A DNA stretch of 64,000 bases from Pirellulaceae bacterium (GTDB lineage: Bacteria; Planctomycetota; Planctomycetia; Pirellulales; Pirellulaceae). Positions 4,738 to 63,761 of the stretch are shown piece after piece; the first letter of the stretch is position 1, and each line of letters starts with the position of its first letter. The DNA is taken from assembly GCA_016784735.1 (NCBI GenBank), contig JADHUC010000007.1:1-64000 (forward strand). The letters run 5' to 3'. The position numbers and the translations under genes are program-made. Under the pieces are notes generated by a model. The model had not been told where the DNA came from and searched no databases. It saw only the letters and a list, made by a program, of their open reading frames with translations.

Positions 4738-4795
4738 GTGGGGCACGTTTCCAACGTGCCTTTTTGGCTGCGGGTACGTTGGAAACGTGCCCCAC
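4738..4795. repeat. Palindromic intergenic element (GTGGGGCACGTTTCC family)
   Basis: A perfect 20-bp inverted repeat, arms 4738-4757 and 4776-4795 (left arm begins GTGGGGCACGTTTCC), with an 18-nt loop. It lies between the PQQ gene and the DUF362 gene. A related but diverged hairpin occurs at 63614-63673. No T-tract follows, so a classical terminator is unlikely; a REP-like dispersed element fits better. Confidence 0.85.
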
Positions 4796-12340: not shown

Positions 12341-12422
12341 CGTTTAACCCCGAGCCGAAGGCGACGGTTATTGTGAGCGGCTCGATGCGCCTCGACCGTC
12401 GCCTTCGGCTCGGGGTTAAACG
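12341..12422. repeat. Long perfect hairpin (GTTTAACCCCGAGCCGAAGG family)
   Basis: A perfect 28-bp inverted repeat, arms 12341-12368 and 12395-12422, with a 26-nt loop, between H1 and the PQQ gene. A second copy with 31-bp arms and a few compensated base changes lies at 50751-50840. Two well-paired copies with different sequence imply selection on the stem or recent spread of a REP-type element. Confidence 0.9.
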
Positions 12423-20187: not shown

Positions 20188-20309
20188 TTATCTTCTCCCT
20201 TCCACGTCGGCGGCGAAGGCGTGCAGCCATTCTTCGAGATTCGTGTAACCATCGCCGTCGTCGTCCCCGTTCGGGTTTTGGGGAATCGTCAGCTTCAGGC
20301 CGGGCAGGG
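20188..20309 (-). pseudogene. C-terminal remnant of a dockerin/EF-hand-like tailed protein
   Basis: On the minus strand an open stretch reads LPGLKLTIPQNPNGDDDGD followed by GYTNLEEWLHAF, and ends at TAA (20188-20190). The DGDGYTNLEEWL pattern is the calcium-binding tail common at the C-terminus of planctomycete polysaccharide lyases and similar exported enzymes. There is no start or upstream coding part: the stretch runs directly into the REP element at 20307. It is therefore a decapitated gene, probably cut by the REP/RAYT module or an associated deletion. Confidence 0.65.
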
Positions 20310-20402
20310 CTCAGATGTACAGAATTCAAAATTGGCGGGCAAACCGCTCGGTGAAGGAAAAGTCTTTCGGCCGCCAATTTTGAATTCTGTACGTCTGAGC
20401 CC
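20307..20402. repeat. REP hairpin, 5' of the RAYT
   Basis: A 96-bp element with 32-bp inverted arms (20307-20338 and 20371-20402; one mismatch) that begins GGGCTCAGATGTACAG. The copy at 21370-21465 has the same orientation and near-identical sequence, including the loop. The two copies bracket the tyrosine transposase gene, the arrangement expected for a RAYT and its cognate REP sequences. Confidence 0.92.
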
Positions 20403-20422
20403 CGATCGTATATGCTGTTGCT

Positions 20423-21364
20423 ATGTCCATCGCCGAACGTTTCCCGGTTGAGAACGGCCTTTTTCACGTGACCAATCGCGGTGTGGATCGGAGAGACATC
20501 GTTCTCGATGACCACGACCGGAAGACATGGCTGCGATTGCTCGACCGAAACGCAACCCGTTGCGGTTGGCGGGTCTTCGCCTTTGCCCTGCTCGACAACC
20601 ATTTTCATCTCTACCTCCGCACACCGCAAGCCAATCTCTCGACTGGTATGCGCGACTTCGAGGGCGGATACGCGACGCTGTTCAATCGGCGGCACGACCG
20701 TGAGGGGCACCTGTTCCAGAGTCGGTTTCACGGCGTCATCGTGGAAAATGACGGGCATTCATGGGAATTGACGCGTTATGTCCATCTCAATTCCTTTCGC
20801 GCCGGTCTGGCCAAGGATCCGTTTCAGGACCGCTGGAACAGCTATCGGCATTACCTGAATCCGGACCGCTCGCCGGATTGGCTGGACTGGAGAACCGTAC
20901 TGGCCGAATTTGGCGGCACGGAATCGCGGGCACGCTTGGCCTACAAGCAGTTCATCGACTCCGGCATCGCCCAGTCGCCGCCGAATCCGCTGGACGCTGC
21001 CGTGGACGGCTGGATATTGGGAAACCAGGAGTTTGTGGCCCAATGCCGGGTGTGGCGGGAGAAGGCGGAAACGCCCGCCGCCACCGTAAGCTTGCAGCAG
21101 GTGTTGGACGCGGCAGCACTCGCGTTCGAGACGCCGCTCGAACATATCATCTAGCGCGGAAGGCATGGAAACTGTGGTCGGGACGCGGCGGTCTTGTTGT
21201 CGCGAGACTTGGTGAGTGAGTCGTTGGACGTGTTGGCGGAGCGTTTCGGCGGCGTCAGCCGCAGCGCCATCACGGAGACGGCCCGCCGTGCCCGCCAACG
21301 TGCCGAGCGGGAACCGACGTTCGCTGCCTTGCTCGTGAAAATCCGCCGCGAGCTCGGGCGGTAA
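20423..21364 (+). pseudogene. REP-associated tyrosine transposase (RAYT) with in-frame amber stop
   Basis: The intact part (20423-21154, 243 codons) has the Y1/HUH transposase fold: GLFHVTNRGVDRRDI, HUH motif DNHFHLYLRT (His60, His62), HLFQSRFHG, and the catalytic-Tyr motif RYVHLNSFRAG (Tyr119). A TAG stop at 21152-21154 interrupts the frame. Reading on in the same frame gives 69 more codons to TAA 21362-21364, with GRDAAVLLSRDLVSES and LAERFGGVSRSAITETARRA, the DnaA-like helix-turn-helix tail usual in this RAYT group. So a full-length gene has acquired one nonsense mutation. It may still make a tail-less protein. RAYTs mobilise REP hairpins; the flanking elements are the likely substrate. 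Confidence 0.85.
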
Positions 21365-21369
21365 GGGAA

Positions 21370-21465
21370 GGGCTCAGACGTACAGAATTCAAAATTGGCG
21401 GGCAAACCGCTCGGCGCTGGGAAAGTCTTTCGGCCGCCAGTTTTGAATTCTGTACGTCTGAGCCC
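21370..21465. repeat. REP hairpin, 3' of the RAYT
   Basis: Second 96-bp copy, arms 21370-21401 and 21434-21465 (one mismatch), in the same orientation as the copy at 20307-20402. It begins 5 nt after the RAYT readthrough stop. On the minus strand it is translated as the last 24-25 residues and stop codon of the glycosidase-like gene. Confidence 0.92.
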
Positions 21466-23722
21466 GGATCGCACTGTCGGCCTCGGGCGTCGCTTGCACG
21501 CGGATACGATCGACGCACATGATGCCGTTGTTTCTGTTGGGAGATAGGATGATCGTCTGGATGCGGTGCACGTCGTCTCGGACAAAAGGCAGACCCGCGA
21601 CTGATCGACCGGCTACGGTCAGGTCGAAGGTGGCCGCTCGCATGTCGGCCCGAATTACCACGTCCTGCCACATGTCGGTTTCGATGGTCAGACCCTCGAT
21701 GGGCACGTCCGTTTCGCCGTAGTAGCAGACCTTGCCGTCTGGAAAGAACCGCACGTGGAACGCGCGGTTTGTGTAGGTATTGGGCGCGTTGTCGAAGGCG
21801 TCGATATCCACGTGGCAACGGCTGGTCGACGGCAAGAGGATCCGCGCCTCGACTTCAACGACGCCGTCTTCGGTATCCACGGCATCTTGTGGCGAGAACT
21901 TGATCCACGCCCGCCCGCCCTGCTGGGCATGTTCGTCGCGACGCTCGACTCTCAGGTAATTCGACTTGCCCGGTTTGCCGCTGCCCGGCGGGTCGTCGTT
22001 CAGCACCTGCACCCGATCCGGTTGGCCCTCGCTGATGAACCACGGTTTGCCGCACGTGTCGGGGTCCACATCCGCGTCGCTGCCCGACGTGCCGGCGTTG
22101 GCCGAGGCAAAGTCGTCATCCATGACCACATACGGGCCCCGTCCTACGGAGCGATTGGGCATGCCTCCATAGAGCACGAGGTCCGGACGTTCGGGATCGG
22201 GCTCGTGGGGCACGAATTGAAAGGCGTACAGGTCCGCGTCCTTCAAGACAAAACGCAAACGCACGGGTTCGCCGGCCAGCGAACGCACGTCGCCGCCTTT
22301 CTTCTTCCAGCGAACTGTATATCGGATGTCGTCGCCGTAGATCTCCGGGCAGTCGCGGAACGTGTAGCCCTTGATTGGGTTGCCGTCTGCGTCCTGGATC
22401 TCGACTTGCACGCTGCCCCCACCGGATGTAGCCAGGTTGAGCGTCAGATTGCCGCCTTCGAAGACCAGCGGTTTGGTGACGATCTCGCCGCCAGCCGCGG
22501 CCGCGTGGGCGGACACGAAACCGTCGATCCGCATCGTGTAGCGGCGCACGCTCGTAGACGTGCCGCGCCAATAACCTTCGCTGGCGTAAAGCGAGATGTC
22601 GTTCGGTGCGCACGGCAAGTTCGAGGCCGTCTCGACCATGCCCCAAAACACGAAGTTGTCGCCGTAGGTCCACGTGTCTTTCTTGGCCGGCCCTGGCCGG
22701 ATGAACGCTTCGGGCCAACGTTTGAACACGCGTCCGTCGCGACTGGTCATGAACAGCGCGTCCGTAACCGCCGTGCCGTAACGTCGACTGCTCTTGGCAC
22801 GCACAAGACGCTCGTCCAACTCGGGCAGGCTAAGCGTCGATTCGGACCAGCCGCGGTCGTTGTAACGCATGGGAAAGCCCATGAAGATGTGGGGCGCCCG
22901 GTAGTAGGGCTGGACCTGGTTGGTGTAGAGGTGCTCGTGGGCGGCACCGGGGAATTCGAGCCAGACTGGCTCCGGGAATTGGAGGATGTCCTTGCTGGTC
23001 GCCGTCATGATGCCACGCACACCGGCGGCGAAGCTGCGGTGGTATTCACGGTACTCGCAGCGTACCGGATCCCAGAACATCAAGTTCTGTGAATCGAACG
23101 CGCCCTTGGTCACCGACGGCTTGTCGCTCATGGGCGTGAAACGGATTCCATCGGCCGAAGCGAGGACGAAGAGCCCACGCGGTTTGTGTCCGACGACCAC
23201 GATCTTGTAGCGTTGGTCGGCCGGGCAGTCCGGGTTGGCGTCCTTGAACGTGGCCGTGTGCGCCGGGTCGCCGCCGATGTCTTCGAGAAAATCGGGCGTC
23301 AAGATGATATTGTTGGCCTTCGATTCGTTGAACTCGAACAGGCCCAACTCCGGTTTGCGCCAGTGGATGCCATCGTCACTCTCGGCATAACAGAGCATCC
23401 AGGGGTGATCCTCCAACGCCTGGGCCGGTTCGCCGCTGTGCCGGTAGTGCAGGCCGCGATAGTACATCCGGTACAGGTCGTCGTCCTTGAACACGCTTTG
23501 GAATGCACTCGCGTTGCCCTCCCACGGCGCGTCCGTGCGAAATACCACTTCGCGCCGTTCGGGCCGGTGCATCCGCAGTTGCACTTCACCGGTCATGGAT
23601 TCAATGAGCGCCTCGTCGACGAACAGTTCCAGCCGCGAACCAATGTGCAGCGGCGGTTCCGTATCCTGGGTCGCTGGCGCAGCGCACAGAGTCAGTATGG
23701 CGCCGGCAATAATCGTGTCCAT
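21389..23722 (-). CDS. Exported glycosidase-like five-bladed propeller protein with LamG-like C-domain
   Basis: A 777-residue protein. Short signal (IIAGAILTLCAAPATQ), then a GH32/GH43-like five-bladed propeller (about residues 25-420; blades such as DDLYRMYYRGLHYRH, WMLCYAESDDGIHWRKPELGLF, FKDANPDCP, NLMFWDPVRCEY and FMTSRDGRVFKRW). A beta-sandwich follows at about 425-530, and a concanavalin/LamG-like domain at about 545-750 ending in CVDRIRVQA. The family usually has acidic catalytic residues, but I cannot assign them securely. The last 24-25 residues (from AQTYRIQNWRPKD on) and the stop come from the REP element, so the native C-terminus has been replaced or extended. GAGAGG precedes ATG 23722. 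It lies 145 nt downstream of paralog A and may be co-transcribed. Confidence 0.75.
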   Translation of the reverse strand: MDTIIAGAILTLCAAPATQDTEPPLHIGSRLELFVDEALIESMTGEVQLRMHRPERREVVFRTDAPWEGNASAFQSVFKDDDLYRMYYRGLHYRHSGEPAQALEDHPWMLCYAESDDGIHWRKPELGLFEFNESKANNIILTPDFLEDIGGDPAHTATFKDANPDCPADQRYKIVVVGHKPRGLFVLASADGIRFTPMSDKPSVTKGAFDSQNLMFWDPVRCEYREYHRSFAAGVRGIMTATSKDILQFPEPVWLEFPGAAHEHLYTNQVQPYYRAPHIFMGFPMRYNDRGWSESTLSLPELDERLVRAKSSRRYGTAVTDALFMTSRDGRVFKRWPEAFIRPGPAKKDTWTYGDNFVFWGMVETASNLPCAPNDISLYASEGYWRGTSTSVRRYTMRIDGFVSAHAAAAGGEIVTKPLVFEGGNLTLNLATSGGGSVQVEIQDADGNPIKGYTFRDCPEIYGDDIRYTVRWKKKGGDVRSLAGEPVRLRFVLKDADLYAFQFVPHEPDPERPDLVLYGGMPNRSVGRGPYVVMDDDFASANAGTSGSDADVDPDTCGKPWFISEGQPDRVQVLNDDPPGSGKPGKSNYLRVERRDEHAQQGGRAWIKFSPQDAVDTEDGVVEVEARILLPSTSRCHVDIDAFDNAPNTYTNRAFHVRFFPDGKVCYYGETDVPIEGLTIETDMWQDVVIRADMRAATFDLTVAGRSVAGLPFVRDDVHRIQTIILSPNRNNGIMCVDRIRVQATPEADSAIRAQTYRIQNWRPKDFPSAERFARQF

Positions 23723-35109: not shown

Positions 35110-38100
35110 CTATCGATCCTCGGGATCGACACGCATCCTTCTGTTTGCCGGGTCGTAGACAATGCGGCACTTGGCGATGCGCCGATTCATTACGTCTACC
35201 ACGAAGAGCCTGTCTTTCCATACGGCCAGGGCGGAGATCGTTCCGAAAGGTAGCTCGGGATGCGGGTGCGCGCTTCGGTGGCCCAAACAATCCGCGTTGC
35301 CGTAGCTCCCGAATTCGCCCACCAGCCGTCCGGTCTCGCAATCAATGACCTGAACGCTGAACTTGCCGGCCAGGTAGAGATACCCTTTGCCATCCAGGGC
35401 CTGGTGTATCCTTGAGGTCCTGCACATGCAGTAGTAGTCCGATATTCCCCCGTGGCCTTCGACGCCTATCCAAGGTCTCGACCAAATTGGTTTCCCGCCG
35501 GATTTGGGGAACTTGGTGACGCAGAGACGGAAGTCAGGGCCCTCGTAAAGAACGTAGATGTCGCCGTGGTCATCTATCAGTACCCCCCGAGGTACATTGA
35601 CCTGGAGCAGTCCCTTGGTCTTCAAGTTGCCGTCGGGACCGTACAGGTCCACGGCCGTCTTGTTGGCCACATAGATGTTGCCCAGCCGGTCGACGTCCAT
35701 ACCCCGATAGATCTTGTGACGATTTGATCCATTCCATTGGGTAGGCTCGACCATCAAGGCGTTCGACCCGGTGGCTTCGAAAGGGATGGGCTTGCCGGCG
35801 CGGTCAAAACGCAGGATCGATATCTCGTCCTTCGTCAGTTGCCACCGGTAGATCTTTCCGTCCTTGCCGAACAGGCAATCGATAAACGGTATTTCTTCAG
35901 GACAACGGGTATGGCGATCCAAATCGGGTATCCCATACTGATCGCTCTGGTGCTTGCCGTTTGCATGATAGAACACCGGCGGCCATTTCTTCAGTATCTG
36001 GCCGCTTTGGTCGATCCGCAGAACGGTCCCGTGCATTCTGTGGCGGTAGTGCGAATCGTCCTCGACATAGACGTGGCCGGTTTCCGGGTCAATATTCAGG
36101 ATCGGGTGGCCGCCGTATTGATCCGGATTGGACAGCTTTTCGTCGTTGCCCCATGAGGTCCAGGTCGGCACGACTTCCGAGGACCCCCATTGGCCCTTTT
36201 GCGAGAGGTCATCGCCGGCCAGTTGCAGCAGGGTCCCCGGCCCGGCACCGTTGGCCACCCAGACCAACGGTGTCGCCACCCCGGCGTCCACGGCGATCTG
36301 ATGGGTCTCCACGTGCAAGGGCTCGGAAATAGCCAGCAACTCCGGCGTCCGCCAACTCTTGAGCCTGAGCAATCGGCGGGGGCCCTTTGCCGCCTCCTGG
36401 ACGAGTACATAGAGACTGCCGCCGTCGGTGGTCAAAGCAGTAGGCCACTGCAAGGGGACTTGCTTGCCTTCGCGCTCATAGTGCCGTATCGTGGCGGCCA
36501 GACGGCCGCTTGATTGGAATACTTGGATGCGGTTATTACCTGAATCCGCCACGATCAGAAAATCGCCGTCGACAGCCAGCCCGCAAGGACCGTTGAACTG
36601 CGTGTCGGCTTCTCCTGGATTCCCAGCCACGCCGAGACTGTTTTGCGGCTCGGCAAGTTCTTCGACCCCGTCATATCGAAAATCCCTGGCGTGCTCGATT
36701 CTGACGCCCTTGCCCAGGCGAAACTTCCGCACGGCCGCCCCCGCCGGGCCTTTTCCTGCCACATTGAATTCAAATTCTTGGCCGAGTTGTCGAGTCAGGG
36801 TCGCGCGCACCCCCGCACCATCGGAGATATACAGTCGGCCGCCGTCGTCAAAACACATGTACGAGTAGGAAGTCGAGACTCCCGGGACATACCGTTTCAC
36901 CCACCGTCCACCCATCCATGCCCCATATCCACCCCCACTGATCCAGCAGGCGGTCTCGAAGGGCTCATTTCGTCCGGGATTGTAGATTGAAGTCCATCCC
37001 TCGCGGGGCAGGCTTCCATCAGGCCTCATTCGCCACAAGGTCCCCAGATAGATACCCGACATGATCAGGTCGCCATTCGGGGCCAGTAGCATCTTCTGCG
37101 GCAGGTTCCACCATTCTCCATACAGCGAGAACTCACACTGGCACTGAATCTGGAACACCTTGGGCATGACCAACTCGACGCCATCTTCCACGGCCGTATT
37201 GCGGCAGAGATCTTTCACATCGGCGCTCGGCAACGTGGGATCGAATGGCATGACGGTTCGCAAATACCGGCCCTGCCGATCGTAAACCCGCAGCTCGCTA
37301 TAGCTCTTGATCCTGGGCACGGAGAGCACATACAGCTCCCCGGTCTTGTCGTCCACCGCCAGATCCCAAATCGCGGCCCGCGCGTGGTGGTCGCCTCCCA
37401 ACAGATATCCTTCCATCTCGATCCGCACCTCGCCTGTCGTGCCGGGATGAGCGGAGCCGGGCCCAAGGCGAATCGGCTCCTGGGTGGCAATCTCTGTCGG
37501 CGGGAGGTTGAACAACGATCGACGATAACTTGGTACGCGACGCTCGTTTGGATCAACCTCGTTTTGATAGTGGACCAGCGGAAAACTCCGCGAGGGCATC
37601 CCCCTGAGTGTTCCGGCGTCATGGGGATTCAAAAAGGGGTCAAGTACCGTTGCCGGAACGGCCCGCAGGGTGCTTCGCACAGCGGTACCTGACCCCTTTT
37701 TGGGCCATGCCCAACAATGGATCTCGCCGCGCGCGTCTCGCCGGCGGATGTTGAACCCGAATTCGGGAGTCAGCGTCCGGTTTCGATGGAAACTGTTGAA
37801 AGGAATCGACACTTCCGCCGTCCAGCCGTTCTCGCCTTGAGCCACGACGGACGTGAACTGCAACCGCCACAGATCCTGCCATGGCGGCCAGTGCTCCCGG
37901 TATTCCCCCGGCGGCGCCCATCGCCCTTGCTTACGCTTGGTTGGCGTGACGGTGATGAGATAGAACGAATTGCCATCGCCGTTGGAATCGACCAGGAGCG
38001 TGAGTTCCTCTTGTTCGGATTCTTTATCTGGTGCTGCTTTGGCACCCATTGTCTCGTTCATGCCGCAGACGACGCCCACGTAAAGATGTTCGGCATCACG

Positions 38101-38361
38101 CGCCACGAACGCCTCGGTCTTTGAGTCCGCCGGCTTTCCATCCACCCTCTTCAGCGGTCCGGTACTTGCAGCCTGCTTCCAAAACGGCTCGTCGAGTTTT
38201 CCGTCGATCTCCGGCTTGGAGCCGATCTCGGGAACTCGCAAGACCGGCCGGTCGCCGCTCTGCTGCGCCGCGGGCAAACGCGACGGCAGTGCCGCAGACG
38301 CAGACGCAATAATCAAAACGCCATAAGCCGCAGCCGTTCTGGCTCTTCTACGAGGCACCAT
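35110..38361 (-). CDS. CBM9-like/NHL propeller protein, array paralog D
   Basis: About 1,083 residues. Signal AAAYGVLIIASASAALPSRL; CBM9-like domain (KPEIDGKLDEPFWKQAA, NSFYLITVTPTKRK); bridge GTTGEVRIEMEGYLLGG; NHL blades (LIVADSGNNRIQVFQSSG); conserved C-terminal block (IHQALDGKGYLYLAGKFSVQ, NADC, PELPFGTISAL). ATG 38361 has AAGGGAG about 8 nt upstream; GTG 38370 is too close to it. Within the CBM9 domain about 22 extra residues (roughly KKGSGTAVRSTLRAVPATVL) are encoded by a palindromic element at 37631-37701, where paralogs B and C have only a 5-residue loop. It is separated from the C-B-A operon by about 1.4 kb of inserted DNA. Confidence 0.82.
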   Translation of the reverse strand: MVPRRRARTAAAYGVLIIASASAALPSRLPAAQQSGDRPVLRVPEIGSKPEIDGKLDEPFWKQAASTGPLKRVDGKPADSKTEAFVARDAEHLYVGVVCGMNETMGAKAAPDKESEQEELTLLVDSNGDGNSFYLITVTPTKRKQGRWAPPGEYREHWPPWQDLWRLQFTSVVAQGENGWTAEVSIPFNSFHRNRTLTPEFGFNIRRRDARGEIHCWAWPKKGSGTAVRSTLRAVPATVLDPFLNPHDAGTLRGMPSRSFPLVHYQNEVDPNERRVPSYRRSLFNLPPTEIATQEPIRLGPGSAHPGTTGEVRIEMEGYLLGGDHHARAAIWDLAVDDKTGELYVLSVPRIKSYSELRVYDRQGRYLRTVMPFDPTLPSADVKDLCRNTAVEDGVELVMPKVFQIQCQCEFSLYGEWWNLPQKMLLAPNGDLIMSGIYLGTLWRMRPDGSLPREGWTSIYNPGRNEPFETACWISGGGYGAWMGGRWVKRYVPGVSTSYSYMCFDDGGRLYISDGAGVRATLTRQLGQEFEFNVAGKGPAGAAVRKFRLGKGVRIEHARDFRYDGVEELAEPQNSLGVAGNPGEADTQFNGPCGLAVDGDFLIVADSGNNRIQVFQSSGRLAATIRHYEREGKQVPLQWPTALTTDGGSLYVLVQEAAKGPRRLLRLKSWRTPELLAISEPLHVETHQIAVDAGVATPLVWVANGAGPGTLLQLAGDDLSQKGQWGSSEVVPTWTSWGNDEKLSNPDQYGGHPILNIDPETGHVYVEDDSHYRHRMHGTVLRIDQSGQILKKWPPVFYHANGKHQSDQYGIPDLDRHTRCPEEIPFIDCLFGKDGKIYRWQLTKDEISILRFDRAGKPIPFEATGSNALMVEPTQWNGSNRHKIYRGMDVDRLGNIYVANKTAVDLYGPDGNLKTKGLLQVNVPRGVLIDDHGDIYVLYEGPDFRLCVTKFPKSGGKPIWSRPWIGVEGHGGISDYYCMCRTSRIHQALDGKGYLYLAGKFSVQVIDCETGRLVGEFGSYGNADCLGHRSAHPHPELPFGTISALAVWKDRLFVVDVMNRRIAKCRIVYDPANRRMRVDPEDR
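37631..37701. repeat. In-frame palindromic element inside paralog D (AAAAAGGGGTCAGGTACC type)
   Basis: A 71-bp hairpin with 19-bp arms (37631-37649, 37683-37701; one T/C difference) lying entirely in the coding sequence, between conserved HCW and NPxxAG of the CBM9-like domain. AAGGGGTCAGGTACC hairpins are, from my knowledge, typical RAYT/REP substrates. The reading frame is maintained. Confidence 0.88.
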
Positions 38362-38419
38362 CGCCTTCACTCCCTTCCGTTTGGCCGCTGGGCTTGGAAG
38401 AGTCCTGCGCCCATCGTCA

Positions 38420-50674: not shown

Positions 50675-50750
50675 CCTGAGGCTCCTTCTACTGCGGCGGT
50701 CCGATGATCGCCAATAGAAACGCTTTCCGATTTCGTTCACGCATGGTTCT

Positions 50751-50840
50751 CGTTTAACCCGAAGCCGGAGGCGATGGCGGGAAGTGGTATGGATCGTCTA
50801 CACATGGCGCCCGCCATCGCCTCCGGCTTCGGGTTAAACG
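50751..50840. repeat. Long perfect hairpin, second copy of the GTTTAACCC family
   Basis: A perfect 31-bp inverted repeat, arms 50751-50781 and 50810-50840, 28-nt loop, between the methyltransferase/PQQ and DUF4838 genes. It shares its outer 10 bases (CGTTTAACCC) and overall plan with the copy at 12341-12422, with paired base changes on both arms. Confidence 0.92.
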
Positions 50841-50863
50841 AAGAGGTTGTCTCATCCCTGATC

Positions 50864-54070: not shown

Positions 54071-54109
54071 TTCTCCTAAATTCGGCTGGACCAGTTTGCT
54101 CTCGGACTT

Positions 54110-54193
54110 GGTTATAGATTAGTGGTTATAGATGAAGGCAGGTACGATTCCATCTCCGCCTCTCTTCTTATCTATAACCACCAATCTATAACC
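54110..54193. repeat. Inverted pair of tandem repeats in a divergent promoter region
   Basis: GGTTATAGAT occurs twice 14 nt apart (54110, 54124) and its reverse complement twice again. Arms 54110-54133 and 54170-54193 form a 24-bp inverted repeat with one mismatch and a 36-nt loop. It lies in the 334-base region between the divergent methyltransferase/PQQ and H3 genes, so it could be a regulator binding site or a mobile hairpin. Nothing else is recognisable in 54194-54404 apart from the AAGGAGGT ribosome site of H3. Confidence 0.8.
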
Positions 54194-54404
54194 ACCCTCC
54201 AAACGACCGCTACCACGGAATGCCCCTCTAATTCCGGACGAAACGTAGCAGCTCACAGCGTCTAATCATCGCATCCGAGACCCGTGAGTGCAAACGAACG
54301 CTGGCCTGCTACAATAATCGCTAGACAAGCACGCTCGCGGTAAACGCCCCGGTCCGCCGAGGCACCGTCGGCTGGAAGGAAACCGAAGGAGGTACCACCG
54401 AACC

Positions 54405-63558: not shown

Positions 63559-63613
63559 TGGTCCATCTCCCTGTACTGATCGCTAAGGGTGAGCGGCGGA
63601 TCAGACCTTACCC

Positions 63614-63673
63614 GTGGGGCAAGCTTCCAGCTTGCCTTTCCCGGAAAATTCGCAAGCTGGAAGCTTACGCCAC
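63614..63673. repeat. Palindromic element (GTGGGGCAAGCTTCCAGC)
   Basis: Inverted repeat with 22-bp arms (63614-63635, 63652-63673; two mismatches) upstream of H4. Similar plan to 4738-4795 (GTGGGGCA start, GCCAC or CCCAC end). Common type of planctomycete intergenic repeat. Confidence 0.8.
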
Positions 63674-63761
63674 GGTACAAGACCAACTGCCGCTCCCCTA
63701 GCCACCAGTTTCCACCATACACTGACGACAATGCAAGGTCATCACCAAGATAAAGGTGGAC

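Follow-up and report, generated by a model that had tools for sequence, protein, structure and literature searches.

Within a protein-coding gene of the 64,000-nt Pirellulaceae contig segment analyzed here (the window), we found a 73-bp palindromic element that is one member of a repeated planctomycete family, copies of which are read in frame by unrelated host genes. It is most probably a non-autonomous, REPIN-like miniature transposable element moved by TIRYTs, with copies that broke genes being lost and copies that kept the frame being retained. The whole element spans positions 37630 to 37702 (no strand assigned), including a closing C-G pair, limits that are based on hairpin energy, the inverted repeat and the other full-length copies. 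A left arm of the GGGGTCA type (37630 to 37652, + strand; subfamily TTCAAAAAGGGGTCAGGTACCGTTG) and a right arm that is its inverse (CAGCGGTACCTGACCCCTTTTTG; 37680 to 37702, + strand, located by inverted-repeat search) enclose a conserved 27-nt loop (CCGGAACGGCCCGCAGGGTGCTTCGCA; 37653 to 37679, + strand), which is identical or nearly so in copies across many planctomycete genomes. The 23-nt arms are 91% complementary, with 2 positions mispaired, and the loop, together with adjoining arm bases, holds small internal palindromes of its own (GCCG-GAA-CGGC and GTGC-TTC-GCAC). The left-arm subfamily of the window copy is also found at loci L093, L142 and L154. The first-pass annotation had placed a hairpin at 37631-37701, the AAAAA...TTTTT core of the element, and this hairpin is real: AAAAAGGGGTCA occurs exactly at 37631-37642 (+) and inverted at 37690-37701 (-), against a chance expectation of 0.20 matches in the window with up to 1 mismatch, and its folding energy gives z scores of -4.8 (+ strand) and -6.1 (gene D strand), with 0 of 200 shuffles equally stable.

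The host, gene D (35110 to 38370, - strand), is an uninterrupted ORF of 1086 aa with a CBM9-like N-terminal domain and NHL/β-propeller repeats, and it translates the element as PKKGSGTAVRSTLRAVPATVLDPFL (residues ~224 to 248). Gene D has 27 residues between the conserved CW and NP where paralogs B and C have 5, making it 22 aa (66 nt) longer at this point with the frame kept, just as had been read from the sequence at first pass. Paralog A likewise lacks the insert, and all three paralogs align with D on either side of the element; the similar insertion that had been supposed in paralog A was not confirmed, with no inverted repeat found in that gene. The location of the insert within a CBM9 domain needs a small correction. 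The label is roughly right, with residues 55-212 (37735 to 38208, - strand) giving a weak match to Pfam CBM9_1 that falls just below the cut-off (23.1 bits compared to 23.4), but the insert lies directly after that match. Structure prediction of the gene D domain rendered the insert as coil (pLDDT of ~25) in a model too poor (mean pLDDT of 43) to reveal a surface loop.

A genome-wide search for more copies had been suggested at first pass, and such copies exist both inside and outside genes. In the bacterium's own genome, an 11.66-Mb draft in 450 contigs (~79% complete), blastn recovered 18 full-length copies; using these to build a covariance model brought in one more with the same loop, giving a total of ~19, of which ~13 are genic and ~6 lie elsewhere. 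The covariance model also picked up palindromes with like arms but other loops in this genome. An exact loop scan of one genome per species returned at least 119 element stretches in other genomes. Among the matches listed, every record bears the name of a Planctomycetota group apart from a single Lentisphaeria metagenome-assembled genome, and Rhodopirellula and Stieleria isolates are included; most loci come from metagenome-assembled draft genomes. No copy in M30B19 or SM50 was classed as genic. A scan of open-licence papers yielded no description of this element.

The loop CCGGAACGGCCCNNNGGGTGCTTCGCA is near-invariant throughout the family, whereas the arms vary between genomes and between copies yet remain self-complementary. 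The 118 exact-loop copies carry 62 distinct 21-nt arms, and pairing between the arms of one copy is 0.968, compared to 0.689 after random reassignment of right arms across the 118 copies. The consensus fold comprises 29 pairs, 9 of them with double compensatory changes, and one-sided changes are almost absent. Many arms are near-palindromes centered on CAG, and the element cores measure 71 to 75 bp in aligned copies. Beyond the A-run, flanks differ by site yet pair with each other (42/60 compared to 20.3 expected; 0 of 20000 shuffles), which could reflect either a preference for small palindromic targets or flank sequence copied on insertion. No direct repeats were recognized at the flanks, and the empty sites in homologs (65 to 80% identical) are too diverged for the exact junctions or a target-site duplication to be read from them. 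The same-genus pair G044/G084 was checked for exact empty sites, and its copies belong to another loop family and are apparently mostly intergenic; this different palindrome family (AGCAGCCTGTTGAAAAAGGGG...CCCCTTTTTCAACAGGCTGCT; L303-L318) is common to the two species.

The arms connect the family to a class of transposase. TIRYTs, their GGGGWSAS motif and their TIR dimers are described in PMC3733652 and PMC6006769. The arms of many copies carry this motif, or one close to it, as GGGGTCAG or GGGGACAG, and so does the right arm of the window copy when read inwards. The label "REP-type" given at first pass was therefore near the mark, but the arms are of the TIRYT terminal-inverted-repeat class and not those of GTAG- or CGTC-tagged REPs. 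Y1 transposases of the type found at L049, which score above the Pfam cut-off for Y1_Tnp and below the NCBIfam cut-off for REP_Tyr_transpos, are present in 54 of 98 relatives, and most of the fetched loci have an inverted arm motif close outside the gene. Inverted repeats flank the Y1 transposase gene at L271-L275, L283, L286-L289, L291-L293, L357 and L358; the gene lies between complete palindromes in G018 and G026; and arm types AAAAGGGGTCGGGAGTC and AAAAGGTGTCAGGAACC of the own genome recur as inverted pairs beside such transposases of relatives. From the GGGGWSAS arms, the arm-bracketed L049 homologs and the shared arm types, we infer that the element is mobilized in trans by TIRYTs, and the transposase that moved the window copy was presumably one of them. 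Among own-genome transposase loci, only L049 has a similar arm (TTAAACGGGACAGGTCTAATT), the others having unrelated palindromes, and no transposase gene with the exact window arm (GGGGTCAGGTACC; arms AAAAAGGGGTCAGGTACC) was found, the own genome being a 79% complete draft. The loop was also sought inside transposase elements, as would be expected from an origin by internal deletion, and nothing was found near the arms. Genome G028 contains 29 TIRYT transposase matches, many of which have stops, and these decayed copies suggest a past burst.

Other palindromes are present in the window. A RAYT-like transposase gene (20423-21154, + strand) sits between two 96-nt palindromes of unrelated type (20307-21465 in all), the right one of which overlaps the 3' end of an ORF at 21389-23722 (- strand). 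Further strong palindromes lie outside the main ORFs at 12341-12422, 50750-50841, 4738-4795 and 63612-63675. The RAYT gene of L045 has the 50750-50841 palindrome next to it again, and a palindrome similar to 4738-4795 adjoins the RAYT gene of L051; the genome therefore carries several REP/transposase systems at once. A glycosidase-like gene and a methyltransferase/PQQ fusion had been put forward at first pass as additional in-window examples of the insertion in gene D, but the hairpins concerned (50750-50841 and 54109-54194) fall outside ORFs.

To avoid circularity, frame keeping in host genes was judged solely from the 300 bp flanking a copy on either side, and a copy was counted if both of these flanks were called as coding with confidence and on one strand. 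Scored in this way, the frame is kept in 26 of 27 in-gene copies overall and in 11 of 11 from the own genome (p of ~7e-12 against one in three), in agreement with the first-pass expectation of frame keeping above one in three. Flank-only scoring of random sites in the same DNA gave 1100/1143. Further loci, including palindromes with other loops, add 6 kept and 0 broken frames, one of them (L345) repeating L086. The sole frame-broken copy (L168) has stops in the flanking frame as well and may not be genic. Hosts are unrelated to each other and include GH116, GH127, GH2, ceramidase-like, CcmF, methyltransferase, PQQ and HZS_alpha/FGE proteins. The insert is missing from the paralogs of gene D and from homologs of the HZS_alpha/FGE protein, the GH127 protein and one further host, relative to which the net gain is 60, 66, 78 or 84 nt. 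Given these frame statistics, the simplest account would be that gene-breaking insertions were purged and that in-frame ones survived as extra loops.

Frame keeping alone fits purifying selection and an inherent multiple-of-three insertion alike. It is conceivable, though on balance unlikely, that the element is adapted to in-frame entry, with a fixed 75 bp (25 codons), no duplication and a preferred open frame making it harmless by design. From the first GG to the last CC, the core is 63 nt, a multiple of three, in most copies, genic and non-genic alike, which leaves room for an inherent frame-neutral length. Furthermore, 22 of 30 in-gene copies use the frame KKGxGxICRNGPEGASHKLxLxPF or its other-orientation counterpart, where even use of open frames would give ~14, and all six frames are open in 25 of 126 copies, compared to 2.7% of shuffled palindromes. 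However, in-gene cores of 61 nt (L016, L142, L154) and 65 nt (L029), as well as elements with other loop lengths, are equally in frame, which speaks against a frame-neutral length that is strictly fixed, and the unequal net gains over homologs point the same way. Copies with all six frames open are no commoner in genes (3/26) than outside them (22/100), and the ratio of ~13 genic copies to 6 others is close to that of random insertion with one-third survival, at a coding density of ~88% that is assumed and not measured. A translation-proof transposon, its length and frames shaped for gene entry, spreading this peptide and its reverse-orientation form through unrelated proteins of different planctomycete genera while swapping transposase-specific arms around a fixed loop, is an idea that we regard as doubtful.

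It is improbable that the insert is retained because its peptide is useful to the host protein as a spacer, binding or flexible segment. The case for this draws on the preference for one reading frame and on two HZS_alpha/FGE-type proteins from two genera (L240 in G000 and L244 in G016), in which copies stand at the same loop after CxxCH in opposite orientations and are therefore independent insertions. But this site is a loop of variable length, and its sharing could mean that the loop tolerates insertions or that it is a hot spot for them; the host proteins are unrelated and have homologs without the insert; and the stem pairing of the window copy is already decaying. Where a Rickettsia palindromic element (RPE) in guanylate kinase was tested, the published results suggested that it is neutral or slightly deleterious (review PMC2229807). 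The insert in the planctomycete protein is probably neutral. We give still less credence to the idea that the hairpin is an ordinary intrinsic terminator or regulatory RNA structure lying in a reading frame by chance. The hairpin is strong and has a T run, and a number of copies, L017, L019 and L021, lie between genes or immediately ahead of them, but the same sequence occurs in the middle of genes for unrelated proteins, in both orientations, and is missing from homologous genes. An Rfam search of the element returned no family at gathering score, with sub-threshold microRNA-like matches that are unremarkable for a long hairpin. True membership in the RPE family or among the GTAG- or CGTC-tagged REPs is the least credible reading: the element is palindromic, repeated and in frame in coding sequence, but it is shorter than RPEs, the ends of aligned copies lack a GTAG or CGTC tag, its arms are of the TIRYT class and the matches listed are almost wholly from Planctomycetota.

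The mobile-element reading that we prefer has parallels in several known systems. TIR repeats associated with TIRYTs (Di Nocera et al. 2013, PMC3733652), classed as TnpA_REP subclass 2.1 in Quentin et al. 2018 (PMC6006769), are alike in their GGGGWSAS arms, inverted pairs beside Y1 (HUH) genes and dispersed dimers. Unlike them, the planctomycete element shares a single loop across genera, exchanges arms and is frequently placed in frame in genes, a placement that the passages of these papers on TIRYTs do not report. REPINs/BIMEs (Bertels and Rainey 2011, PMC3116915) similarly consist of two inverted palindromes and a spacer that form one hairpin, with compensatory changes and a link to RAYTs. 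However, REPINs are almost all extragenic and their spacers are less conserved, whereas in the planctomycete element no part is as conserved as the spacer, extragenic copies do not predominate (~13 of 19 own-genome copies being genic) and the unpaired GTAG tag per unit is absent in aligned copies. RPEs, too, are palindromic repeats that occur in frame within genes for unrelated proteins and are presumed to be tolerated, so the analogy with them drawn in the first-pass annotation is sound, but kinship is not: RPEs measure 105 to 146 bp (PMC2229807) compared to ~75 bp, and RPE-4 and RPE-6 are CGTC-tagged with no dedicated transposase known (PMC3733652), whereas the planctomycete element has TIRYT-type arms and no CGTC tag at the ends of aligned copies. 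Intragenic GTAG/CGTC REPs of Opitutus terrae, Thauera and others (PMC3733652) match it as REP dimers coding 20 to 30 amino acids in ORFs and differ in tags and sequences. Intragenic in-frame REPs and MITEs are thus already documented (PMC2229807, PMC10969869 and PMC3733652), and therefore the principle of in-frame insertion is not new; the planctomycete lineage, the transposase link and the fixed-loop/variable-arm design are.

We propose that two inverted TIRYT-type terminal repeats enclosing the conserved ~27-nt loop would be recognized as single-stranded arms by, most likely, a TIRYT/RAYT-like HUH tyrosine transposase acting in trans, which could then excise or copy the element and insert it at many sites. 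Copies would persist between genes, or in a loop or linker of a gene where the frame is kept and no stop is introduced, and over time several arm types may have been joined to the constant loop. Being short, usually stop-free on both strands and rich in G, P, S and K in its commonest frame, the element could be read through as ~25 tolerated residues. In gene D, it adds ~22 residues after the CBM9-like domain.

In-frame coding hairpins have so far been regarded mainly as an oddity of Rickettsia, with the mobilizing enzyme unknown. Planctomycetes offer a comparable system in which a candidate class of transposase lies next to arms that match, and the peptide tag makes its insertions countable in any proteome. 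The family is thereby a tractable test case for how protein loops arise from small elements and for how a fixed loop comes to be joined to different transposase-specific ends.
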